From assembly GCA_913056345.1 (NCBI GenBank), contig CAJXMH010000015.1:1-64000 (forward strand): DNA of 64,000 nt. The letters are read 5' to 3'. The position numbers and the translations under genes were made by a program. Under the pieces are notes generated by a model, which had not been told where the DNA came from, searched no databases, and saw only the letters and a program-made list of their open reading frames with translations. This document shows positions 4,915-64,000 of this stretch, in pieces (within the stretch, counting starts at the first letter, position 1; each line of letters begins with the position of its first letter). This stretch comes from an uncultured Flavobacteriales bacterium. Its GTDB lineage: Bacteria; Bacteroidota; Bacteroidia; Flavobacteriales_E; Vicingaceae.

Positions 4915-4947
4915 TTTGTTATTTTTTTTATTAAATGTATATCTTTA
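4915..4947 (+). promoter_or_regulatory. Promoter of the TonB receptor / T9SS operon
   Basis: A -33 element TTTG (4915-4918) and a -7 box TATCTTTA (4940-4947, one mismatch to TAnnTTTG) are separated by 21 nt, the spacing typical of Bacteroidota housekeeping promoters. The start codon of the receptor gene is 47 nt further on. Confidence 0.6.
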
Positions 4948-4993
4948 CGCTCCTGTAGTTTTACGACCATTGTAAGAACATAAAACAACAATT

Positions 4994-7900
4994 ATGCTAA
5001 AAAAATTACTGTTGACGCTAGTGATAGCGTTTGGTTCAATCTTGTCTATTCACGCTCAAGTGGGACAAGGATCAATAAAAGGAGTTGTTAAAGATGGGGA
5101 CTCTGGTGAGCCCATTCCCTTTGCTAACGTAACTTTAATGAATGGCTCCGATCAAGTAATAGGAACCACAACTGATTTTGACGGTAGGTATACCTTGAAA
5201 CCTATTCCTCCGGGAACTTATGACCTTCAGGTGTCTTACGTTGGTTACCAAACGAAGCGAGTTGCTGGTATTTCAGTATCGTCAGATAAGATTACAAAAC
5301 AGAACTTAGAGATAACTGCAGGTGTTAAATTGGACGTTGTGGATATCGTTGAGTATAAAAAGCCCTTAATTGAACTTGATAAAACGACTTCTGAAGAAAC
5401 AAAAACAAGAGAACAGATTGAACGTATGGCCGTAAGGTCCGCAATTGACGTTGCTAAAACAGCAGGTAACGGAGTGGTTTCAAGGGACAATGGGTCAAAC
5501 ACCATGAACATGCGTGGTAGTAGAGGAAGCAATAACGTTACCTTTATTGATGGTATTAAAGTTATTGGATCTACTTCTTTACCCAAATCAGCAATTGAGG
5601 AGGTTACAGTAAAGACAGGAGGTTTGTCAGCACAGTATGGTGACGTTACTGGTGGTGTAACCTCTATTACTACAAGGGGAGCCTTGAAAGAGTATTTTGG
5701 AAATGTTGAAGTATTAACTTCAGGCTTTAAAGCTTCTGAAGGAAATGTTGTTGGTTTGGATAACTTTGGTTACAACCTTTTTGGTTTTAGCGCAGGTGGT
5801 CCAATCATTACGAAAAAAGATGACGAAGGCAATGTTAAAGATGCTCCATTAGGTTTCTTGTTGACAGGGGAGTACCGAACGATTTTAAATCCAAGACCAT
5901 CAGCAGTGCAATTGTATAAACCAAGAGACGCTGTGCAAGATGAAATTCACTCTGATCCATTGTTTACAGATGGCATCAATCCTGGAGTTTTCAAAAAAGC
6001 TGAGTTCCTCCGTTCAAGTGATTTTGAAGAAATCGATTATCAAAGAAATGTAGAATCTAAGCGACTAGTACTGAATGGAAAAATTGATATCAAGATCAAT
6101 GATTTATCCGCACTAGCGATTGGGGGTACTTTTGATCGTAGGGTTGGTAACAGCGATTCGAGAAACTTTCAACTATACAACTACTTTAACAACCCTCGCT
6201 CTACCGCCAATGATGTAAGAGCCTACGTTAGGTATACCCAGCGTTTTGCAAATGCGGAGACCGAAGAAGGGGAAGAAGATAATTCTATTGTAAAGAATGC
6301 TTTCTTTAGTATTCAGGCTGACTTCTCTAGAAGAACCACAGTTTTGGAGGATGAACGACACGAGGATAATTTCTTTAACTATGGACATGTTGGTCAATTT
6401 AATGCTATCACTGAGCCATCTTATGCTTTTGAAACAGGAAATGGTAATGGGGTTTTGCTTGATAATGGTCAGCGTTATATAGGCGATTTCTTGACTGCAT
6501 TTAACAGTCCGATCGCTTATAATTTCACTCCGGGAACCACAAATCCACTTTTAGCAAATTATACTAGTAGTTTTTACCAGTTTAGAGATCAGTTCCCTCA
6601 ATTTTATGATACAAGAGAAGATGTTGAAGGATTTGGTGGATTAGTAAATGGTAGTACAATTCCGAACAATGTGTACAACCTATGGAGTCACCCTGGTGCA
6701 GTCTTTAACTCTTACCAACAAACACAGCGCGATCAGTATCGTTTGAGTGGTATAGGTTCTGCAGACATTGGCGAGCATGCAATAATGCTTGGATTTGAGT
6801 ATGAGCAAAGAGTTACAAGCAATTACAGTTTAAATCCTTTAGGTTTATGGCAGTTAGGTAGAGGTTCTGTGAATAGTCACATAGAGCAAATAGACTCAAG
6901 CAACTATACGATTGTACAAGCCTCCTCTTTTCCTGAGATTACATTCGAAAGAGCGTATGCAGGAGATGCAAGAACTTATTTTGCTTACAACATGAGAAGG
7001 GCTTTAGGCTTACCTGTTGATGGAACTGATTTTATTGATTTTGACTCTTACGATATCAGCACTTATAAAATGGAATACTTTGCTGCTGAGCAATTAATTA
7101 ACCCTGCTAATAATGTTAACCTGCAATACAGAGGTTATGATCATTTGGGTAACAAGTTTACTGATCAGCCCAGCCTAGATGACTTCTTTAATCAGACAAA
7201 TGAATTAGGATTTAAAACCAGACCCGTAGCTGCTTATCAGCCAATTTATATTGCAGGATTTATTGAAGACAAATTTGCCTTTGACGATTTAGTTTTTAGA
7301 CTTGGATTGCGTTTGGATCGTTTTGATGCAAATCAGCCAGTGTTAAGGGATCAATTCTCGTTTTTCCCAACTAGAGACGTTGCTTATGCAAGAGGACAAG
7401 GCTTAACAAACGTTCCAGGAAATATTGGTGAAGATTACGTTGTTTATGTTTCTGATATTGAAAATCCTGGGGTTGAGAATGTAATTGGTTACCGCAATCC
7501 CGAAACGAACACCTTCTTTAATGCTACAGGTGAAGAACTCAATGATCCTACAGTTTTACAGGCAGGTGGTTCAATAGCGCCTTGGTTGCAAGACCCTTCA
7601 AGAAGAAGTGTTGTTGAAGATATGGATGCATCTTCTTTCGAGGATTACGAACCTCAGTACACTTTGATGCCAAGAATCTCCTTTTCATTCCCAATCTCTG
7701 ATGAGGCTACCTTCTTTGCCAACTACGATATTTTAACTCAGCGTCCAACAGGTAATGTGGCACTAGATCCAATTGATATTATTTATATCCAAAACCATAA
7801 TAGGATTTTAACGAACCCGAACCTGCGTCCAACAAGAACGATAAGTTATGAAATTGGGTTTAAACAAAAATTAACCAATAGTTCAGCTTTAACCCTCAAT

Positions 7901-8749
7901 ACATTCTACAGAGAGCAAAGGGATGAAATTCAAGTAATTCGTTTAGTAGGTGCATTTCCTGAGGACTATTTAACATACTCTAACCAAGATTTTGGAACTG
8001 TAAAAGGGTTCTCTGTTAATTATGACTTGAGAAGGATAAAAAATATAATGTTGAGAGTGAACTACACCTTGCAATTCGCTGAAGGTACAGGTTCAGGATC
8101 GCTTAGTTCACTGAATTTAGTTAACTCAGGTCAACCAAACCTAAGAACTATCTTCCCATACAGCTACGATCAAAGACATCAGATAACTACTGATATTGAT
8201 TACCGTTATGCTAGAGGAAGCAGATACAATGGTCCTAAGATCGCAGGGAAGAACATCTTAGAAGATGCAGGTTTGAACCTTCAGTTTATCGCCGGTTCGG
8301 GAACCCCATACACTGCAAGATCAGGAGCAGATAATAGTGAAAATATTGGAGGGGGTCAATTTAGACAACCAATTGTTGGTGATGTAAGTGGATCTCGTTT
8401 GCCTTGGACAGTTAGACTAAACGCCCGTATTGATAAGAATTTTATGATCAAGTGGGGTAGTAAGAATGAGTCAAACGAAAGTTTATGGAAAAATGGTCAA
8501 AAGACCTCTACACTTAATGTTTACTTACAAGTGCTGAATGTGCTAGATCGTCAGAACGTACAGAATGTTTATGCCTACACAGGAAATGCTGATGATGATG
8601 GTTTCTTAACCTCTGCAGCCTTCCAAGACGTGATACGTCAGCAAATCAATGAAGAGTCGTTTAGAGATCAGTACGCAATAAGATTGCAAAACATGTACAA
8701 CTTTGAGCTTCCAAGAAGAATTCGTCTTGGATTAATGTTAAACTTTTAG
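4994..8749 (+). CDS. TonB-dependent outer-membrane receptor with carboxypeptidase-like N-terminal domain
   Basis: 1251 residues. A signal peptide (cleavage after SIHAQ near 22) is followed by a CarboxypepD_reg-like beta-sandwich (about 26-110; SIKGVVKDGDSGEPIPFANV), a TonB plug (about 130-240; MNMRGSRGSNNVTFIDGIKV and YGDVTGGVTSI) and a 22-strand-type barrel ending in the terminal aromatic of RLGLMLNF. It should import a bulky substrate with TonB energy. There is no SusD-like partner, so it is not a typical polysaccharide locus; the partners are a large T9SS cargo protein (20 nt downstream) and a PorV-like barrel. The plug precedes a very long barrel region with many loops. Substrate unknown. 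Confidence 0.93.
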   Translation: MLKKLLLTLVIAFGSILSIHAQVGQGSIKGVVKDGDSGEPIPFANVTLMNGSDQVIGTTTDFDGRYTLKPIPPGTYDLQVSYVGYQTKRVAGISVSSDKITKQNLEITAGVKLDVVDIVEYKKPLIELDKTTSEETKTREQIERMAVRSAIDVAKTAGNGVVSRDNGSNTMNMRGSRGSNNVTFIDGIKVIGSTSLPKSAIEEVTVKTGGLSAQYGDVTGGVTSITTRGALKEYFGNVEVLTSGFKASEGNVVGLDNFGYNLFGFSAGGPIITKKDDEGNVKDAPLGFLLTGEYRTILNPRPSAVQLYKPRDAVQDEIHSDPLFTDGINPGVFKKAEFLRSSDFEEIDYQRNVESKRLVLNGKIDIKINDLSALAIGGTFDRRVGNSDSRNFQLYNYFNNPRSTANDVRAYVRYTQRFANAETEEGEEDNSIVKNAFFSIQADFSRRTTVLEDERHEDNFFNYGHVGQFNAITEPSYAFETGNGNGVLLDNGQRYIGDFLTAFNSPIAYNFTPGTTNPLLANYTSSFYQFRDQFPQFYDTREDVEGFGGLVNGSTIPNNVYNLWSHPGAVFNSYQQTQRDQYRLSGIGSADIGEHAIMLGFEYEQRVTSNYSLNPLGLWQLGRGSVNSHIEQIDSSNYTIVQASSFPEITFERAYAGDARTYFAYNMRRALGLPVDGTDFIDFDSYDISTYKMEYFAAEQLINPANNVNLQYRGYDHLGNKFTDQPSLDDFFNQTNELGFKTRPVAAYQPIYIAGFIEDKFAFDDLVFRLGLRLDRFDANQPVLRDQFSFFPTRDVAYARGQGLTNVPGNIGEDYVVYVSDIENPGVENVIGYRNPETNTFFNATGEELNDPTVLQAGGSIAPWLQDPSRRSVVEDMDASSFEDYEPQYTLMPRISFSFPISDEATFFANYDILTQRPTGNVALDPIDIIYIQNHNRILTNPNLRPTRTISYEIGFKQKLTNSSALTLNTFYREQRDEIQVIRLVGAFPEDYLTYSNQDFGTVKGFSVNYDLRRIKNIMLRVNYTLQFAEGTGSGSLSSLNLVNSGQPNLRTIFPYSYDQRHQITTDIDYRYARGSRYNGPKIAGKNILEDAGLNLQFIAGSGTPYTARSGADNSENIGGGQFRQPIVGDVSGSRLPWTVRLNARIDKNFMIKWGSKNESNESLWKNGQKTSTLNVYLQVLNVLDRQNVQNVYAYTGNADDDGFLTSAAFQDVIRQQINEESFRDQYAIRLQNMYNFELPRRIRLGLMLNF

Positions 8750-8769
8750 GCCGAAGAAATAATAGAAAG

Positions 8770-11700
8770 ATGATGAACATTAGAAAAAATATCACATTAT
8801 CCTTACTTGTGCTCACTCAGGTGGCTTTCGCCGCTAAAGGCCCAAGTGAAAGTAATAATGATCGTAATGCCGCGAACAGGCAATCTTTAGCCGCTGGATG
8901 CTCGCCTGCCACACGAATTACTTACATGGAATACAATAATGTAAGGACTCGTGTAGAAACGGGTGGATTATGGTGGCAAGATAGACCAAATAGTCGCGCA
9001 GACTATGAAGTGCCGAGAAATTCCAACTCTTTCGCTCTATACGCAGGAGGATTATGGATGGCAGGAACTGATGTTAATGGTCAGTTAAAAGCTGCAGCAA
9101 GTTTATTCGGCACAGGCGGAGTAGACTATTGGACAGGTCCTCTCGATACTACAGGTACTGCCGAAATTAATGCTGCTACTTGTGAGGAGTGGGATCGATT
9201 CTTTGAAATCGATAAGCAGGAGGTCTTGCAATTTGTTTTGTATAGAAGAGCAGTCGAAGCAGGCACTGATGCTGAAGATTTTCCTGACTATCAAGTTCCA
9301 CTTTCTATCCAAAACTGGCCTGCTAATGGAGACCTATCTAAAGGACAAGCTAATAAATTAGCTCCTTATGTAGACGTAAATGGTGATGGCTTCTATGATT
9401 ATAACGACGGAGATTATCCTTTTTACGATCTTGGTTCTGGTTTCAATAGCTTAATTGATCCCAATATTCTCAATGCAAATGGACAGGTTGATTGCCGCGC
9501 TCCAAGAGCTAGCAGAAGTGAGAGTGCTTCAAGGCCACTATTTGGAGATAAGACCTATTGGTGGATTTTTAACGATAAAGGTAACCTTCATACTGAAACA
9601 AATGCACCTTCTATAGGAATGGAGATTCACGGTCAGACTTTCGCTTTCGCAACTAATGACGAGATTAATGATATGACTTTCTACAATTTTGAGTTAATAA
9701 ATCGTTCAACATTTACTTTAACAGATACATACTTTGCGAATTATGTAGATTCTGACTTAGGTAATCCTCAGGACGATTACGTTGGATGTGATGTAGAAAG
9801 GGGATTTGGCTTTTGTTACAATGGTGATGAAACGGATGAAGATTTCAATGGTCAGACCGGATATGGATCTACACCTGCTGTTATTGGAATAGATTTCTTT
9901 GAAGGTCCTTATCAGGATGCTGATGGAATAAATAACCAAGTTGGAATTCTTCCCGGCCAAGCATTAAACGGACTAGGTTACTTTAACCCTAATGAATTAG
10001 AACCCGATACTTTAATTGATAATGAGCGTTTTGGTATGAGAAGGTTCGTTTATTATAACATCGGAGGAGGTCAGAATGGAGACCCATCTTTGGCGATTCA
10101 TTACTATAATTATATGAGAGGTATTTGGCAAAATGGTCAAAACATGCGTCATGGCGGAGATGGATTAGCTTCAGGCGGGGTTGAGTCAATTCCAACTTAC
10201 TTCATGTTCCCAGGTGATAGTGATCCTTTACATTGGGGTACAACTGATGAAAATGGAATTACTACGGTCCCTCAAAATACCAATTGGACTGAGTCTACTC
10301 CTGGTGGAGGTTCTCCGAATGCTCCGGGTGATAGAAGATTCTTGCAGTCAGCCGGACCTTTTACTCTAGAGCCCGGAAATGTAAACGACATTACAGTGGG
10401 GGTTGTATTCGGTCAAGCTGAAACAGGTGGTCGTTTCGCTTCTTTAGAAAGAGCAATTACGGCCGATGATAAGGCTCAAGCATTATTTGACAACTGTTTT
10501 CAGGTGCTTGATGGCCCTGATGCTCCAGATTTAACAATTCAAGAACTAGATCAGGAATTGATCCTGTATTTAAGTAATAGTGAGTTATCAAACAACTTCA
10601 ACGAACAATATGAAGAAGATGATCCAAATATTGTAACTCCTGATACTTTACTGAATAGAAATCCACCTATTGTCTACGATAATACTTACAGGTTCCAAGG
10701 TTATCAAATTTTCCAACTTAAAGGTCCTGATGTATCTGTTTCTGAGATTGGTAATCCTTCAGTGGCTCGTTTAGCTTTCCAATGCGACATTAAAGATGGT
10801 GTAACAACCCTGATCAACTATACTTTTGATGAAGGACTTGGAGCTAATATACCAGTCTTACAGGTTGAGGGATCTAACGAAGGAGTTGTCCATAGTTTTA
10901 GAGCAACTGAGGACTTGTTTGCAACGGGTAACACATCTCTGATTAACTATAAAACCTATTACTACGTTGCGGTGGCATATGCTTACAATGAATTTAAGCC
11001 TTACGAGCAAGATCAAGCTCCTGATCTTGAAAACCCACTAGCACCGGCATCAGATGGTCAGAAGCAGCCTTATCTAGCTAGTAGAAAGACAGCAGATGGA
11101 GGTTCAATTGCCTCTGTTGCCGCTATTCCACACAGCATTACACCTGAAGAAAGTGGTACTGTATCACGTTCATCATATGGTGATTTGATAGGAATAACAA
11201 GACTTCAAGGACAAGGTAACGGTAACAATGGGCTTGAATTGACAAATCAGACTCTAGATCGTCTTATTGAAGAGAAGAGTTGGGAAGACGATTCTTCTTT
11301 TATAGACCGCTTAGATTACAGACCTGGTTCAGGGCCTCTCACAGTTAAAGTGGTAGATCCCCTTAACGTAGTAGATGGTAAGTTTTACTTTAAAATGCTT
11401 GATGAAGATATTAATGGAAACCCTGCGGTAACAGATACAGCAGAATGGATGCTTTGGGTTGAAGGTGGAGACACTGTGTATTCCAAGAATAGCATTGATA
11501 CAAGGACCGAACAATTGCTTTTTGATCCTAATTGGGGACTTTCCATCTTAATTGAGCAAACAGATAATCCTGGTCAAGATCCTGCAAACGGCAATGGGTT
11601 TATAGACTCTCGTATTGAGTACGATGATCCTACTAAAGCATGGCTTACAGGTATCCCTGATTCTGATGGAGAAACACCTTTTAATTGGATTCTTTCGGGT

Positions 11701-12972
11701 TCTTCGGGTGGTCTTCAGGCAGCTTACGGGGATCGAACGATTGGTGGAGACTTTGTAGACCCTAATGAAGATTTTGAAAATATACTTGAAGGTACGATTG
11801 CCCCTTATGGTTTGGTTGGTTATGGAACTGGAAATACCAATACAGGTTTACTTCTGAATAAGCCAGCCTTCGATTTTGTTTCTGCTCAAAGATCTAGACT
11901 AGAGTATTTGAACTCCACAGTTATTGTATACACAAAAGATAAAAGCAAATGGACTCGTTGCCCTGTGATTGAATTACAGGAGGAGACTAGTAGAGCGATA
12001 GCAGGAGATAGTAAGTATTCTAAGCGATCACTTGGATCTGTCGATAAGGATGGAAATATGTGGCAGCCTGGAGATCCTGCAGACGTTACAGATCCTAATA
12101 GCCCTGCTTATATTGATTCCATTGGTATGGGATGGTTCCCAGGATATGCAATAAACCTTGAGACAGGGGAACGAATGAATATGGCTTTTGGAGAGGATAG
12201 TTGGTATGGAGTTGACAACGGAGGCGATATGATTTGGAATCCTACATCAACTGTTTTTTCTGGAGCTCAAGGTAGTTTAGTATGGGGTGGTAAGCATGTT
12301 ACTTACATCTTCAGAAAAACGCTCGATGCAGAAGGTGTTCCTACGATTCCAACCTTGCCTACTAAAATGACAGAGTACGATGCCGGGGAGCGCTTGAATG
12401 AAATGTTGAAGAGCCCTGTAAGTATTATTCCTGGGTATGCTTGGGCTGCATGTAGTTGGGTATCTATACCATTACTCGAACAGGGTGCTGAATTGCTTGA
12501 AACAGATGCACGTGTTTATCTGCAGGTGGCTAAGCCATTTGATGTCAAATATTCTGAGATAGATGCCGATTTAATGAACGATGGCAGACCAGTTTATACT
12601 TTCGAGACACAGGGGATAGCTACTCTGAAAAATCAAAGAGGCGTTCTTGCAGATGCACTTGAGGAAATAAATGTTGTTCCAAACCCATATTATGCAGTTT
12701 CAGATTATGAAAATAGTGCTATTGATAATAGGGTTAAGATTACAAATCTGCCTCAAAATTGTAACATAAAAATTTACAACATGTCAGGGACATTAATTCG
12801 CGAATACAATAAGTCAGATCCGCTTAATTTCCTTGATTGGGACTTGTCCAACCAAGTGGGTATTCCAATATCGAGTGGTGTTTACATCATTCATGTTGAT
12901 GTTCCTGGGGTTGGTGAAAAGATTCTTAAATGGTTCGGTGTGATGAGACCGGTAGACCTTAACAATTTCTAA
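8770..12972 (+). CDS. Very large T9SS-secreted protein with C-terminal sorting domain
   Basis: 1400 residues. There is a signal peptide (MNIRKN then a hydrophobic stretch ending AFAAKG). The start of the mature region is Trp/Gly-rich (ETGGLWWQDRP, YAGGLWMAGTDVNG), followed by acidic calcium-site-like loops such as DVNGDGFYDYNDGDYPFYD near residue 200. The C-terminus (about 1300-1400) has a type A T9SS sorting signature: VVPNPYY, KIYNMSGTLIREY, SSGVYIIHVD and GEKILKWFGV. The product should cross the outer membrane and be attached or released. It lies between a TonB receptor and a PorV-like gene (gaps of 20 and 11 nt), so the three form one operon. I do not recognise a catalytic domain. A start two bases apart is equivocal, since ATGATG begins the gene. 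Confidence 0.88.
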   Translation: MMNIRKNITLSLLVLTQVAFAAKGPSESNNDRNAANRQSLAAGCSPATRITYMEYNNVRTRVETGGLWWQDRPNSRADYEVPRNSNSFALYAGGLWMAGTDVNGQLKAAASLFGTGGVDYWTGPLDTTGTAEINAATCEEWDRFFEIDKQEVLQFVLYRRAVEAGTDAEDFPDYQVPLSIQNWPANGDLSKGQANKLAPYVDVNGDGFYDYNDGDYPFYDLGSGFNSLIDPNILNANGQVDCRAPRASRSESASRPLFGDKTYWWIFNDKGNLHTETNAPSIGMEIHGQTFAFATNDEINDMTFYNFELINRSTFTLTDTYFANYVDSDLGNPQDDYVGCDVERGFGFCYNGDETDEDFNGQTGYGSTPAVIGIDFFEGPYQDADGINNQVGILPGQALNGLGYFNPNELEPDTLIDNERFGMRRFVYYNIGGGQNGDPSLAIHYYNYMRGIWQNGQNMRHGGDGLASGGVESIPTYFMFPGDSDPLHWGTTDENGITTVPQNTNWTESTPGGGSPNAPGDRRFLQSAGPFTLEPGNVNDITVGVVFGQAETGGRFASLERAITADDKAQALFDNCFQVLDGPDAPDLTIQELDQELILYLSNSELSNNFNEQYEEDDPNIVTPDTLLNRNPPIVYDNTYRFQGYQIFQLKGPDVSVSEIGNPSVARLAFQCDIKDGVTTLINYTFDEGLGANIPVLQVEGSNEGVVHSFRATEDLFATGNTSLINYKTYYYVAVAYAYNEFKPYEQDQAPDLENPLAPASDGQKQPYLASRKTADGGSIASVAAIPHSITPEESGTVSRSSYGDLIGITRLQGQGNGNNGLELTNQTLDRLIEEKSWEDDSSFIDRLDYRPGSGPLTVKVVDPLNVVDGKFYFKMLDEDINGNPAVTDTAEWMLWVEGGDTVYSKNSIDTRTEQLLFDPNWGLSILIEQTDNPGQDPANGNGFIDSRIEYDDPTKAWLTGIPDSDGETPFNWILSGSSGGLQAAYGDRTIGGDFVDPNEDFENILEGTIAPYGLVGYGTGNTNTGLLLNKPAFDFVSAQRSRLEYLNSTVIVYTKDKSKWTRCPVIELQEETSRAIAGDSKYSKRSLGSVDKDGNMWQPGDPADVTDPNSPAYIDSIGMGWFPGYAINLETGERMNMAFGEDSWYGVDNGGDMIWNPTSTVFSGAQGSLVWGGKHVTYIFRKTLDAEGVPTIPTLPTKMTEYDAGERLNEMLKSPVSIIPGYAWAACSWVSIPLLEQGAELLETDARVYLQVAKPFDVKYSEIDADLMNDGRPVYTFETQGIATLKNQRGVLADALEEINVVPNPYYAVSDYENSAIDNRVKITNLPQNCNIKIYNMSGTLIREYNKSDPLNFLDWDLSNQVGIPISSGVYIIHVDVPGVGEKILKWFGVMRPVDLNNF

Positions 12973-12983
12973 AATATAGATTT

Positions 12984-14051
12984 ATGAAACGAATAAATTT
13001 TAGTCTATTATTAGCTTCTTGTCTTTCTTTTACGCTCCTTTATGGAGGAAATGAAGATCGTGCAGGAGAAGCCGGTGCATCAGAGCTACTCATTAATCCA
13101 TGGGCAAGAAGTTCTGGATGGGGTAATGCAAATACCGCTTCTGCCTTTGGAATAGAGGCCATGCATTTGAATGTAGCCGGATTAGCCTATACCGAAGGAA
13201 CACAAGTAAACTTCGTTAATACGAGTTGGTTGTCTGGAACAGATATTAGTATCAATGCTGCAGGTTTAGCACAACGTCTTGGTGAATCAGGTGGTGTGCT
13301 AGGTGTTTCCTTGATGTCAATGAGCTTTGGTGATCTAGATATAACTACAGTTGATAATCCTGATGGAGGTTTGGGAACTTTCAGGCCTAATTATTTTAAT
13401 CTAGGAATGGCCTATTCTAAGAACTTCTCAGAAACAATCAGTGGGGGAGTTGTTGTAAAATTGGTTTCTCAATCAATGGCAAATGTTAGAGCTAGTGGAG
13501 TTGCAATTGATGCGGGTGTTAATTACGTTACCGGGGAAAACGACCAGTTGAAGTTTGGTATTGCCTTAAGAAACGTAGGGCCAACTATGCAGTATAGAGG
13601 GAATGGTTTATCAGATCGATTCGAAGATTTGGAAACAGAGAAGCAGCTGACGATTAATCAACGCTCAAATGATTTTGAACTTCCTTCTTTACTGAATATT
13701 GGATTGTCTTATGATTTTTACCTTGCTCAAAATCCAGAAAGTGATGAACTTTCAGAGCATAGATTAACCGCTGCAGGAACGTTTACTTCTAACTCATTTA
13801 CTAAGGATCAGTTTAGAATTGGCGCAGAGTATGCTTTTAGAGAGATGTTCATGGTTAGAGGTGGATATACTTATGAATCAGATATTGAAAGTGAAGAGGA
13901 AAGCAGAACAGTATCAGCAGGACCCTCATTTGGTGCTACTGTAGAGATTCCGCTAGGACAGTCAGGTTCTACTTTTGGCATTGATTATTCCTACAGAGTG
14001 ACACGGACTTTCGATGGAACGAACGCAATTGGTGTTTCCTTAAATTTCTAA
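12984..14051 (+). CDS. PorV/PorQ-family outer-membrane barrel protein
   Basis: 355 residues with a signal peptide (to about GG near 22). The early PWARSSGWGNANTASAFG and MHLNVAGLAY segments are typical of PorV-like (FadL/OMPP1-related) barrels, and the protein ends in the aromatic GVSLNF expected for barrel insertion. PorV is the T9SS shuttle that carries cargo from the translocon to the attachment complex. This copy lies 11 nt after a T9SS cargo gene and is followed by a terminator, so it is more likely a dedicated partner of that cargo than the general core PorV. Core T9SS genes (porK, porL, porM, porN, sov) are not in the window. Confidence 0.85.
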   Translation: MKRINFSLLLASCLSFTLLYGGNEDRAGEAGASELLINPWARSSGWGNANTASAFGIEAMHLNVAGLAYTEGTQVNFVNTSWLSGTDISINAAGLAQRLGESGGVLGVSLMSMSFGDLDITTVDNPDGGLGTFRPNYFNLGMAYSKNFSETISGGVVVKLVSQSMANVRASGVAIDAGVNYVTGENDQLKFGIALRNVGPTMQYRGNGLSDRFEDLETEKQLTINQRSNDFELPSLLNIGLSYDFYLAQNPESDELSEHRLTAAGTFTSNSFTKDQFRIGAEYAFREMFMVRGGYTYESDIESEEESRTVSAGPSFGATVEIPLGQSGSTFGIDYSYRVTRTFDGTNAIGVSLNF

Positions 14052-14077
14052 GAACAAATTAATTACATAGTTTTACG

Positions 14078-14109
14078 AAAGAGAATCCCGATGAGGGATT
14101 CTCTTTTTT
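14078..14109 (+). terminator. Rho-independent terminator of the TonB receptor / T9SS / PorV operon
   Basis: The stem GAGAATCCC (14081-14089) pairs with GGGATTCTC (14095-14103), is extended by AAA/TTT pairs, has a 5-nt loop and is followed by a run of T. It separates the operon from greA. Confidence 0.9.
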
Positions 14110-14130
14110 AAGTTATATAGCACAGATAAT

Positions 14131-45546: not shown

Positions 45547-47148
45547 TTATTTTACCACGATCTTTTTAGTACTAAAGTATTTATGATCAACTGCTAGAGT
45601 GAGACTTAGGGTTCCACTTTTTAGCTGATCTGAAAGCTTTAAGTTAAGCTCATTATCTCCTACTCTTCCTTCCCAAATGCCTTGCTGTATGATTTGCCCC
45701 TGCACATTGCTTAGCAGATAGCTAATGGGTGCTGCTTGATCCAAGTGTAACTCCAAATGAATGGTGTTTTCTACAGGATTCGGAAATACTTTGAAGTCTA
45801 GTTGATGCTCACCTTTAATGTCTTGTAGATTAGTTGATCTTGACCGAATTAAATCTACTTGATAGATGCTTGGGTCGGCACTGGTTGTATTGGTTTGATT
45901 GGTGCTGAAAGGATTTAGGCTGTTGCTTAGAATACCTCCATAAATATGTCCGATGGCAATGGTATCTGCTTGAATATCATTTAATTTAATGATCTCAGAT
46001 TCGTAGTGAGGAAGATTTTCATTTAAAATGAATTCAGCACTTGCTCCTTTAAAGTTTGGCATTTGGCTACTGAGTTGAAATTCTTGCAAACTACTGTCAG
46101 CATATCGACTCAGACGGCTAATGGTTCTTACAAAAGGCACTTGATTGTCTTGAATCAGGTTGCCATTTTGGTAATAATATTGGCTCATGCCACCAAAAAA
46201 GAGGCTGTGCATCTCATTTTGTAGACTGTCGTAAAATGCAACTTTAGCACTGTGATAATTGCTTAAGTATTGATTGAAAGATGTTATTGGATTGTAGCCA
46301 TTGGCTGTAATGTCAACTGGGTAAAGAAAAGGCAAGTCAACTGTAGGTTGGAAAACACCAGAGGAGATGGTGTAGCCCTCAGTTCCGTCAGGAAAGATTT
46401 GTGGCATTAAATTGTAATCTCTTCGACGAAGGTGCACCGCATCTGTAATGGTTTGGTAATTTCTTACAGACAAGCTCGTAGCGTTTTGGGTAATCTCAAA
46501 TTTTCTTATTTGGTTGGTATAGCTTTGGGTGTAGGTAGGATTTCCCCTCGGGTTGTATCGGCCATTAAAATTATGTCCGCCTACTAGGTAGAAGGTGCTC
46601 CCAATCTTTCCGATTTGACCACCACTGACCGCAAAATTAGGGTAACTGATCTGCCTGATGTAAGGAGAAATTGCAGTTCCGTTGACAATTGCCGTAATAA
46701 GGGCCGGAACATCAATGGCACTTAAGTTGGGAAAAGTAATGTGATTGTTAGCTGTGGGAGAAAAAGCATAACCCCCAATGATATATAAGGAGTCTCCATC
46801 TTGGTAAAAGTTCATATTGGTCGACTGAAGCTGCTCTTTGATGCTGGTGGCTAAGCTGTTTAAGGAGGCGCTCCAAAACTGCTGAGCTGCAATGTCGACT
46901 ACGTAAATGCTGTCGTTATTTTGGTTTTGAGGAAAAGAATTGAAAGGTTGACGGGCATGCAATCCATCCCTTCTTCCTCCAATAATCAGCCATTTGCCAT
47001 TATCTTGACCAAAGGCATAAGAGTGCAAACCCGGAAGACCAGGAATGCTAATGGGGTTTAGTTGTACTTCATAGTTGGTGGTTACTTGCGCTGTGCTGCT
47101 TGATAAAGCAACAAACAGGGCGAAAGCCAGAGTAAGTAGTTGTTTCAT
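45547..47148 (-). CDS. T9SS-sorted kelch-like beta-propeller protein
   Basis: 533 residues. A signal peptide (TLAFALFVALSSSTAQ) precedes several kelch-like blades with GG pairs: GKWLIIGGRRDGLHA, DSLYIIGGYAFSP, GSTFYLVGGHNFNG, MHSLFFGGMSQYYY and IAIGHIYGGILS. The C-terminal about 85 residues are a type A T9SS sorting domain: LDFKVFPNPVENTIHL, APISYLLSNVQGQII and SGTLSLTLAVDHKYFSTKKIVVK (last given in part). The product is exported across the outer membrane. It is unlinked to other T9SS genes and convergent with hemE. Ligand or target unknown. Confidence 0.85.
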   Translation of the reverse strand: MKQLLTLAFALFVALSSSTAQVTTNYEVQLNPISIPGLPGLHSYAFGQDNGKWLIIGGRRDGLHARQPFNSFPQNQNNDSIYVVDIAAQQFWSASLNSLATSIKEQLQSTNMNFYQDGDSLYIIGGYAFSPTANNHITFPNLSAIDVPALITAIVNGTAISPYIRQISYPNFAVSGGQIGKIGSTFYLVGGHNFNGRYNPRGNPTYTQSYTNQIRKFEITQNATSLSVRNYQTITDAVHLRRRDYNLMPQIFPDGTEGYTISSGVFQPTVDLPFLYPVDITANGYNPITSFNQYLSNYHSAKVAFYDSLQNEMHSLFFGGMSQYYYQNGNLIQDNQVPFVRTISRLSRYADSSLQEFQLSSQMPNFKGASAEFILNENLPHYESEIIKLNDIQADTIAIGHIYGGILSNSLNPFSTNQTNTTSADPSIYQVDLIRSRSTNLQDIKGEHQLDFKVFPNPVENTIHLELHLDQAAPISYLLSNVQGQIIQQGIWEGRVGDNELNLKLSDQLKSGTLSLTLAVDHKYFSTKKIVVK

Positions 47149-61290: not shown

Positions 61291-64000
61291 ATTTGTTGAT
61301 CAAAGCAATTTTCCTAGTATAGGCTTTTCCATCTATGCGTAAGTTCAAGAAGTAGAAGCCTGCAGGCAGCGCTGCAAGGTTTAATTGAATTTGTTTGTCT
61401 AGTCGTAGTACTTCTGGCGCATTGATTTGTGCTCCTAAGCTATTGAATAAAGCATACTCAACGGCTTGATTTGTTTTGCTTTCAAAAGTGATGTTCAACA
61501 GCCCACTGCTAGGGTTAGGGAACACCTCAAGACTTTCTTGAACACTGTTTTCGCTCAAGCCGATAGCCCTAATGGTGTCTTGCGTTACCATAATGGTTTG
61601 AGGAACTAATGGCGGAGCCGTAACCGTAATCATATCTGTTCTTACATTCCCACTGTTATTGGTTTCGGTGGCTCTAACCGTAATTCTACTCGAGAATGCC
61701 CCACTATCAGGGCTAACCGTCATCCAATTAGAGCTTTCTTCCACTTTCCATGAAATTAGGTTTGAACTGATATTGAAATTCACCTCATCTTGTGCATCAC
61801 TTCCAAGAATTAAAACAGTCGGTGAGGTTTGAAATAAAGGAGTGGATGAACGTTGGATTACTGTAATTGCAGTGTCGCTAAATCCATCTGCTGATGCGAT
61901 GATTGTTCCGCTGCGCTGGTTGCCAAATATGTTGTTACCTGCGGCAGTTAAAGTAATTAGTTGAGTATTGTTACCCCTTGCCGGATTTACAACTAACCAT
62001 GGAATGTTTTCACTTAAGCTCCAGTCTACAGCATTGGCAAGCACACTGAAATTTGCTGTACTACCTGCTGTTTCATCAACAAAAATGGTGTCTCTCGAAA
62101 CTTGAAAACTTGGTGCAGTTCCGTCAATTTGGGTAATCATGACCATAACGTCAGGCAAGCCCGGTGATGAAAAAGTAAGGTTAGCTGTTCGGCTACTACC
62201 GCTCAAATTATCAGTAATTGCGCTCACTGTAATGTTTGCATTGTTACTACCAGAATTCGTTGAAAGATTTAACCAAGTAACCGGATTACTCACTGTCCAA
62301 CTAACATTTGCAGTTACTGTCAATTGATCATTGCTACCTGCTGCAAAATTTAGATTAAGACTAGAAGGGTTAACAGAAAGTTGTGGCTGCTGACCCGCTT
62401 GGATAACCACAAGGGTGTCAATCTCTACAGGAAGTGAGCTCGCACTGCTCAAAACGAGCGTACTTCTTTCGTTAAAAGAAGAATTGGTCGAATTAGCAGT
62501 CGCTGTAATCGTGGCATCTCCAGTACCTGAGTTTTGGCTTAAATCCAACCAAGTTGCCTGTGGATTAGAAACCCAAGAGAAGGTTGAACTAGGCGCATCT
62601 AAGCTGAATGAACCACTACTATTGGCTGCTGCAGCTAGTCTCAAGGTATCAGGACTGGTTTGTATGCCTGCCGATTGAGCTGCTTGAACGACAATTACCG
62701 TATCTGTTAGATTTCCACCTGCTTCAGCAAAGGCAAGAAATGAAAATCTGCTATTGCCAGTTGTGTTGTCACTGTTTGCCGTTAAAGTAATGTTTTGGCT
62801 ATTTGTCCCATTGCTTGGGTTGGCAGTAAACCAAACTGCACCGTTACTGCTGTTCCAGCTGAGGTTCGAACTTAAACTTAATGATACAGTAGAGTTCGCG
62901 CTTGAAGCCAAAGTAACGGTATCATTGAGGGCATTTAGGGTAGGTGAATTCCCTAATTGGTCTACCCAGACTGTATCTGTAAGGTTTCCTGCTAGGTCCA
63001 TAATCGAAACATAAGAACTCCTTGCATTCGGGTTTGTATTCGCAGTATTTGCAATTACTTGAACCACGCCGGTGTCTGAAGTTGGATTTGGATCAATTAC
63101 TGTTAGCCAAGTAGCACCTGCCATAGTTTGCCAAGAAGTATTAGAATTAACAGTAAAGTTTCCGCTACTGCTAGCAGCTTGATTAAGACTTAAGTTGTTA
63201 GGTGTTACACTTAAGGTTGGCGTTAGTCCATCTTGGGTAACAAAAATCGTATCGGTTACATTACCATTTACTGAAGCCAATGCAATAAAAGATGCACGTG
63301 GGCTAATAGAGGTGTTTTCCGTAGTGGCTGAAACTGTGAGGTTGGCATTTCCATTTCCTGAACTTGGACTTACATTTAACCAGCTTGGATCACCTGATGT
63401 AGCGTTCCACATGAGGTTTGAACTCAAGTTAGCATTAGCGGAACTATTTGCAGCTTGAGCCAAGTTGAGGTTTTTGGGTGATGCATCTAAAAGAAGTGTT
63501 CCACCTAATTGACGAACCACAACTGTGTCAAAAAGGGTTCCTCCAATATCTTGAATCGCAACAACAGTAAAGCGATCCGTCGTGCTTACATTCATGCTGT
63601 TGCTCATCACTTGTACTAAGTTGGTGTCAGACATACGCTGTGGGTTAAGAATGTCTAACCATGCAGCAGGAGTGGAAGTTTGCCAGACCACAGTTGAGTT
63701 AATAGTGAAGTTGCCCATACTGTTTGCTGCCTGATTTAGGGTGACCGTATCAGGTGTGCTGCTTAGGCTTGGCGGTCTGGATGGTAAGCTATCTTGAACT
63801 AAGAATACAGTATCGTTCGAAGTGTTAGGGGCCGTGCTGTTTAGAACTGCAGCATAAACTTGAATGTTGTTAGTCAAATTAGGAGGAAGCGTGATCGCGA
63901 CTGAATCGTCTCCGTTGCCTGTGTTTGGACTAATTGTACTTGTAGCAGGTGCATTGGGGGAGCTTACATTCCAATTTACGCTTGCTAGCACTTCAAATTT
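61289..64000 (-). CDS. Long BACON/Ig-like repeat protein with T9SS sorting domain (5' end cut)
   Basis: At least 903 residues, open to the right edge; no start is visible. It contains part of one and then eight repeats of about 90 residues (from about 63783 to 61575 in descending order), each with a pattern LNxAANSSGxFxxxSNxxW...AxWLxxxPxSGxxxxxxTVxAxxNxxxxxRxxFxxxxxxxGxxxDTxxVxQ typical of BACON-like carbohydrate-binding beta-sandwiches. Repeats 1 and 3 are closest to each other, as are 2 and 4, implying a two-repeat unit that was duplicated. The last 85 residues are a T9SS sorting domain (LEVFPNPSSGLLNITFE, LPAGFYFLNLRIDGKAY). The product is a secreted, probably surface, adhesive or glycan-binding protein. 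The Ser/Asn-rich bias is strong. Confidence 0.87.
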   Translation of the reverse strand, partial: KFEVLASVNWNVSSPNAPATSTISPNTGNGDDSVAITLPPNLTNNIQVYAAVLNSTAPNTSNDTVFLVQDSLPSRPPSLSSTPDTVTLNQAANSMGNFTINSTVVWQTSTPAAWLDILNPQRMSDTNLVQVMSNSMNVSTTDRFTVVAIQDIGGTLFDTVVVRQLGGTLLLDASPKNLNLAQAANSSANANLSSNLMWNATSGDPSWLNVSPSSGNGNANLTVSATTENTSISPRASFIALASVNGNVTDTIFVTQDGLTPTLSVTPNNLSLNQAASSSGNFTVNSNTSWQTMAGATWLTVIDPNPTSDTGVVQVIANTANTNPNARSSYVSIMDLAGNLTDTVWVDQLGNSPTLNALNDTVTLASSANSTVSLSLSSNLSWNSSNGAVWFTANPSNGTNSQNITLTANSDNTTGNSRFSFLAFAEAGGNLTDTVIVVQAAQSAGIQTSPDTLRLAAAANSSGSFSLDAPSSTFSWVSNPQATWLDLSQNSGTGDATITATANSTNSSFNERSTLVLSSASSLPVEIDTLVVIQAGQQPQLSVNPSSLNLNFAAGSNDQLTVTANVSWTVSNPVTWLNLSTNSGSNNANITVSAITDNLSGSSRTANLTFSSPGLPDVMVMITQIDGTAPSFQVSRDTIFVDETAGSTANFSVLANAVDWSLSENIPWLVVNPARGNNTQLITLTAAGNNIFGNQRSGTIIASADGFSDTAITVIQRSSTPLFQTSPTVLILGSDAQDEVNFNISSNLISWKVEESSNWMTVSPDSGAFSSRITVRATETNNSGNVRTDMITVTAPPLVPQTIMVTQDTIRAIGLSENSVQESLEVFPNPSSGLLNITFESKTNQAVEYALFNSLGAQINAPEVLRLDKQIQLNLAALPAGFYFLNLRIDGKAYTRKIALINK

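Follow-up and report, generated by a model that had tools for sequence, protein, structure and literature searches.

A conserved trio of TonB-dependent receptor, type IX secretion cargo and PorV-family barrel in Bacteroidota: a candidate uptake unit

What might a TonB-dependent receptor, a large cargo of the type IX secretion system (T9SS) and a barrel of the PorV/PorQ family do together in one operon? The question is posed by a window of 64,000 nucleotides, the whole stretch of DNA analysed here, from an uncultured Flavobacteriales bacterium. Three open reading frames (ORFs) lie head-to-tail on its + strand, separated by 20 nt (receptor to cargo) and 11 nt (cargo to barrel). The features of the locus, by position in the window, are these:

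4915..4947, + strand: Bacteroidota-type promoter, TTTG (4915-4918)-N21-TATCTTTA (4940-4947), read from the sequence
4994-8749, + strand: TonB-dependent receptor ORF, 1251 aa
5330..5371, + strand: TonB-box-like segment LDVVDIVEYKKPLI, which aligns with VVVEYERPLI-type sequences of orthologues
8770-12972, + strand: T9SS cargo ORF, 1400 aa
12634..12969, + strand: CTD of the VPNPY subtype, cargo residues 1289-1400
12946..12969, + strand: module-specific C-terminal tail RPVDLNNF, past the usual CTD end
12984-14051, + strand: PorV/PorQ-family outer-membrane barrel ORF, 355 aa
~14076-14110, + strand: intrinsic terminator, a 12-13 bp stem followed by a T run

The operon and its conservation

The layout put forward in the original prediction (three ORFs with tight spacing, a TTTG-N21-TATCTTTA promoter and a single strong terminator) is borne out in the sequence. 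Of 52 receptor genes, 22 have a site of the form TTTG-N17-23-TAnnTTT[AG] upstream, where Markov shuffles lead one to expect 1.9; these promoter-like sites mostly fall 68-88 nt ahead of the receptor start. The terminator, overlooked by a simple scanner, was seen by its folding energy (-20.7 kcal/mol, z = -6.1). It was also correct that the operon contains no SusD gene; a single SusD match lies elsewhere in the genome.

The receptor carries a signal peptide (predicted mature N-terminus, Q22), a CarboxypepD_reg domain (residues 27-106) and a Plug domain (residues 130-222), and its C-terminal residue is F. The Plug scores 34.9 bits against PF07715 (cut-off 23.9), as befits a TonB-dependent transporter. 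The Pfam scan gave no match to the barrel domain PF00593 in this receptor; that domain was matched in one of the two paralogous module receptors scanned. Nor does the receptor match the SusC/RagA model TIGR04056; by this and by the lack of SusD in the operon, the system falls outside the SusCD class. From its sequence, we regard LDVVDIVEYKKPLI as a putative TonB box.

Synteny excludes a chance neighbourhood. The order of TonB receptor, CTD cargo and PorV-family barrel is kept in 21 further families of the class, and other classes of the phylum show it as well; a contig of Crocinitomix algicola carries all three genes. Among 60 related genomes, the cargo has matches in 59, and the orthologous receptor and the orthologous barrel in 54 each, mostly as single copies. 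Wherever receptor and barrel share a contig (38 of 38 genomes) they are on the same strand and 3.9-5.0 kb apart, which is space enough for the cargo gene. In 14 genomes the two are on separate contigs, several of which end at the cargo gene; in the genera that we inspected, such ends are explained by a second cargo copy with identical ends. Three genomes (G010, G016 and G028) have a second copy whose ends are fully identical over 76-445 nt, which points to cargo copies that were recently duplicated or that have undergone gene conversion. Assemblies that break exactly at the cargo gene were noted in six genomes, these three included. Three near-complete genomes (G043, G050 and G057) gave no match to an orthologous receptor or barrel, and weak cargo matches or none; one incomplete genome (G008) has the cargo and lacks both partners. 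All 28 genomes tested for SprA have it, some that lack the trio among them.

A scan of the genome collection returned at least 566 relatives. For the best 80 of these loci, both neighbours are found beside 41 of the 62 testable cargo genes, the rest being mostly without either; in other classes, 15 of 16 testable loci have receptor, cargo and barrel in that order. The conserved gene order for which the original prediction had looked is therefore found across families and classes. Many cargo copies, those of Crocinitomicaceae and Fluviicola among them, have neither a receptor nor a barrel beside them, so the pairing is not invariably one to one in some lineages. Two loci have the order receptor, cargo, barrel, second cargo. 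The trio or the cargo also turns up in six metagenome-assembled records titled Chryseobacterium gleum, Sphingomonadales or Chitinophaga pinensis; these titles are probably wrong.

The module is repeated in other classes. One genome (G088) has ten sets of receptor, VPNPY-CTD protein and PorV-family barrel, the trio among them, and its barrels outside the modules include its own PorV, PorQ-like and PorV2-like genes. Across the other-class loci of seven genomes, 32 of 42 barrels are in complete modules, with up to 10 modules per genome. These paralogous modules differ in their cargo bodies and share the CTD subtype; five such cargo bodies gave no Pfam match, in keeping with varied ligand binders rather than a single enzyme. 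Module-to-module distances in the receptor, in the CTD and in the barrel go up and down together within genomes (Spearman 0.42-0.70; no more than 2 in 1000 within-genome shuffles reach such values), so the three parts mostly duplicate and diverge together. This parallel divergence supports a functional pairing without proving contact, since operon duplication alone yields some correlation. The original interpretation is thereby supported in part: the paralogous modules and the parallel divergence of their three parts strengthen the proposal of a dedicated unit, with a putative physical complex and a receptor that may import, export or only dock. We rejected a replacement of SusD in the form of an inverse count across genomes, as the trend did not reach significance (rho -0.42, p 0.17, n = 12).

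A distinct barrel and an atypical CTD

The barrel had been described as PorV-like, and that description holds for the family and not for PorV itself. It scores 156.5 bits against the PorV/PorQ family model NF033709 (cut-off 90), and it fails the models for PorV (NF033710: 80.9 bits, cut-off 250), PorQ (NF033711: 85.3 bits, cut-off 220) and PorV2 (NF052325: 61 bits, cut-off 325); the genome has a separate, true PorV (G000:C22, 479 bits), as well as a true PorQ (G000:C1) and a true PorV2 (G000:C40). With these three and SprA all separately present, we rejected the trio as a T9SS core component. In a tree of 78 barrels, all 25 trio barrels, drawn from several classes, form one clade (SH-aLRT 99) that is separate from PorV, PorQ and PorV2. 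An AlphaFold2 model of the barrel (pLDDT 83) finds the PorV of the T9SS translocon as its best structural match (8gl6_F, TM 0.70; also 6h3i_F), with FadL and BamG weaker. The original prediction had named a grouping with FadL-type transporters as its possible undoing; family scores, tree and fold search instead place the barrel among T9SS PorV-family barrels, and on these grounds we rejected both a FadL-type transporter and BamG.

A second PorV-family barrel gene of this genome lies directly 3′ of the gene for a 948-aa receptor, with CTD proteins encoded upstream (positions 5824-9689 of G000:C4:15000-32000). This barrel, too, is not recognised by the PorV, PorQ and PorV2 models. The arrangement has an orthologous counterpart in G088 and has the look of another conserved set of receptor and barrel, one whose cargo gene lies upstream.

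The cargo comprises a conserved N-terminal body (approximately residues 44-700), a variable middle and the C-terminal CTD. The C-terminus scores best against the PorZ model (E = 3e-9), better than against the general type A CTD model. The CTD reaches 23.1 bits against TIGR04183 (cut-off 23; 27.1 bits in the genome search) and 14.8 bits against PF18962 (cut-off 27), and profiles built from trio CTDs give hardly any match to the genome's 30 top-scoring ordinary CTDs. Its extra tail is conserved, with Phe as the last residue in 84 of 123 orthologous cargos. No trio protein matches the type B CTD or PorP/SprF models, which sets the cargo apart from type B substrates. Among strong VPNPY-type CTDs (at least 80 bits) in eight genomes, 25 of 29 are followed, on the same strand and at no more than 1.5 kb, by a PorV-family barrel gene, for which the chance expectation is 0.1-0.3% each. 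Elsewhere in the window, two more type A CTD ends occur on the - strand (61307-61525 and 45550-45789), in open frames of 1207 and 536 aa, respectively.

As predicted, the cargo has no recognised catalytic domain: the Pfam scan gave nothing above cut-off, and no sequence relatives were found in the PDB. An AlphaFold2 model of residues 41-1235 (pLDDT 87) is mostly beta. In its fold search, glycoside hydrolases such as dextran dextrinase, GH116 and GH94 phosphorylases came up as weak local matches (TM no higher than 0.2 in the top rows); SusD is absent from these top matches, which are themselves weak and partial. Dextran dextrinase, GH116 enzymes and GH94 phosphorylases have a large beta-sandwich domain in common. 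We take these matches as no more than a hint that the cargo body may be a binding scaffold. On the strength of the missing Pfam and PDB sequence matches, and of structural matches to glycoside hydrolases that are no better than weak, we rejected the reading of the cargo as an enzyme, and we give it no catalytic assignment.

A proposed working and its alternatives

We hypothesize, and consider it marginally probable, that the trio is a SusCD-like TonB-dependent unit in which the T9SS exports a surface partner whose CTD keeps it on a dedicated barrel, in place of a lipid anchor. The cargo would cross the inner membrane via Sec and the outer membrane via the cell's T9SS. Its VPNPY-type CTD would be captured by the co-encoded PorV-family barrel rather than by PorV, and would stay uncleaved there, the barrel acting as a protein anchor in the way of PorQ for PorZ and of PorP/SprF for type B CTD proteins. 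That the CTD scores best against PorZ, a protein held by PorQ, we count in favour of a CTD seated on a barrel. The cargo body, in a ternary complex, would lie over the co-encoded receptor as a substrate-binding lid, in the role that SusD has for SusC, and the receptor would import the bound ligand with TonB energy; we infer import from the receptor's plug and its conserved TonB-box-like segment.

Could the cargo instead be an adhesin or structural protein that is shown at the surface on its private barrel, while the receptor imports nothing and acts as a platform for docking or assembly? Most type B CTD proteins that have private shuttles are adhesins, known or predicted (PMC12618676), and this cargo is without an enzyme domain. 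However, a mere platform sits poorly with a receptor that retains its plug and whose TonB-box-like segment is conserved, and almost all paralogous modules have kept a receptor of their own, so we find such a display unlikely. We think it quite improbable that the receptor serves export, i.e., the TonB-energised moving or release of the cargo, in the manner of Oar and PopC in Myxococcus: PopC secretion needs a TonB-dependent transporter with a CarboxypepD_reg N-terminal architecture (PMC6434023), a domain that our receptor shares, yet this architecture predominates in Bacteroidetes at large, and a cargo with a T9SS CTD, in a cell with SprA, has no need of a second exporter. Either role for the receptor, export or display only, is in our view less likely than uptake.

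That the barrel is a secretion shuttle only, with the cargo cleaved and then attached or released like ordinary type A substrates and the receptor merely co-regulated, strikes us as likewise quite improbable. PorV itself does work as a shuttle (PMC5562754), and the genome encodes a 583-aa protein (G000:C21:10375-12021; 8370-10118 in locus L204) that is paralogous to the N-terminal body of the cargo and bears an ordinary type A CTD, so that the same body is used with both types of CTD. Against this, the CTD of the trio is not a typical one (at 27 bits it ranks close to last among the genome's 97 type A matches, and it has its extra conserved tail), and the distance correlation is stronger between receptor and CTD than between CTD and barrel.

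Known systems and wider meaning

PorQ anchors PorZ, and PorV anchors PorU (PMC5562754). The PorZ-PorQ pair is like the trio in that a CTD surface protein is set on a PorV/PorQ-family barrel; it differs in having no TonB receptor and in that PorZ has beta-propellers and delivers A-LPS, and the trio barrel belongs to a clade other than that of PorQ. Type B pairs such as SprB-SprF and PG1035-PorP-PorE (PMC12618676, PMC9143113) also have a CTD gene followed by a private barrel gene, with cognate pairing and several paralogous pairs per genome; interfaces predicted for type B pairs reach an ipTM of about 0.8 (PMC12618676). The trio would fit in as a third set of CTD-barrel pairs, beside these and the PorV/PorQ ones, to which a TonB receptor is added. 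In contrast to those PorP/SprF systems, the trio has a type A-like CTD, a barrel of the PorV/PorQ family and a TonB receptor in place of PorE. With SusCD, the trio has in common a TonB receptor that is co-encoded with a large surface protein and a many-copy paralogous expansion, whereas its surface partner is not SusD and, rather than bearing a lipid anchor, carries a T9SS CTD and is paired with a barrel. The BamG-BamH pair of the Bacteroidota BAM (PMC12578637, PMC12611786) offers another likeness, in that the extracellular loops of BamG, a FadL/PorV-superfamily barrel, bind a large surface protein; BamH, however, is a lipoprotein, and the trio barrel is structurally closest to PorV, not BamG. 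Oar-PopC (PMC6434023) likewise ties a CarboxypepD_reg TonB receptor to one secreted protein. PopC differs from the cargo in being a protease. To our knowledge, the Oar-PopC system has neither a CTD nor a PorV-like barrel.

We found no description of the trio in the literature searched, a scope outside which subscription papers and preprints lay. Each part belongs to a known kind; what is new to us is how they are combined and how widely, as surveyed in genomes of the phylum Bacteroidota. More broadly and more tentatively, the modules may constitute a second large class of Bacteroidota TonB uptake systems, parallel to SusCD, in which the uncleaved CTD of a T9SS-exported lid fixes it to a private barrel. 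In several classes the systems would have diversified into as many as about ten paralogues in a genome, and in the class of the window they would be reduced to a single core copy.

Private PorP/SprF shuttles have been assigned to type B CTDs, type A CTDs being said to use PorV (PMC12618676). If our preferred reading of the trio is true, the private pairing of CTD and shuttle seen for type B CTDs and PorZ-PorQ would extend to a large group of type A-like CTDs, and the view that all type A CTDs use PorV, with private shuttles confined to type B, would need revision. A review has proposed that cognate PorV-like barrels shield CTDs from cleavage (PMC10202324), and the modules would supply specific gene pairs for testing what keeps a CTD uncleaved. 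Many unnamed PorV/PorQ-family proteins would gain a function, and type IX secretion would be tied directly to nutrient import.
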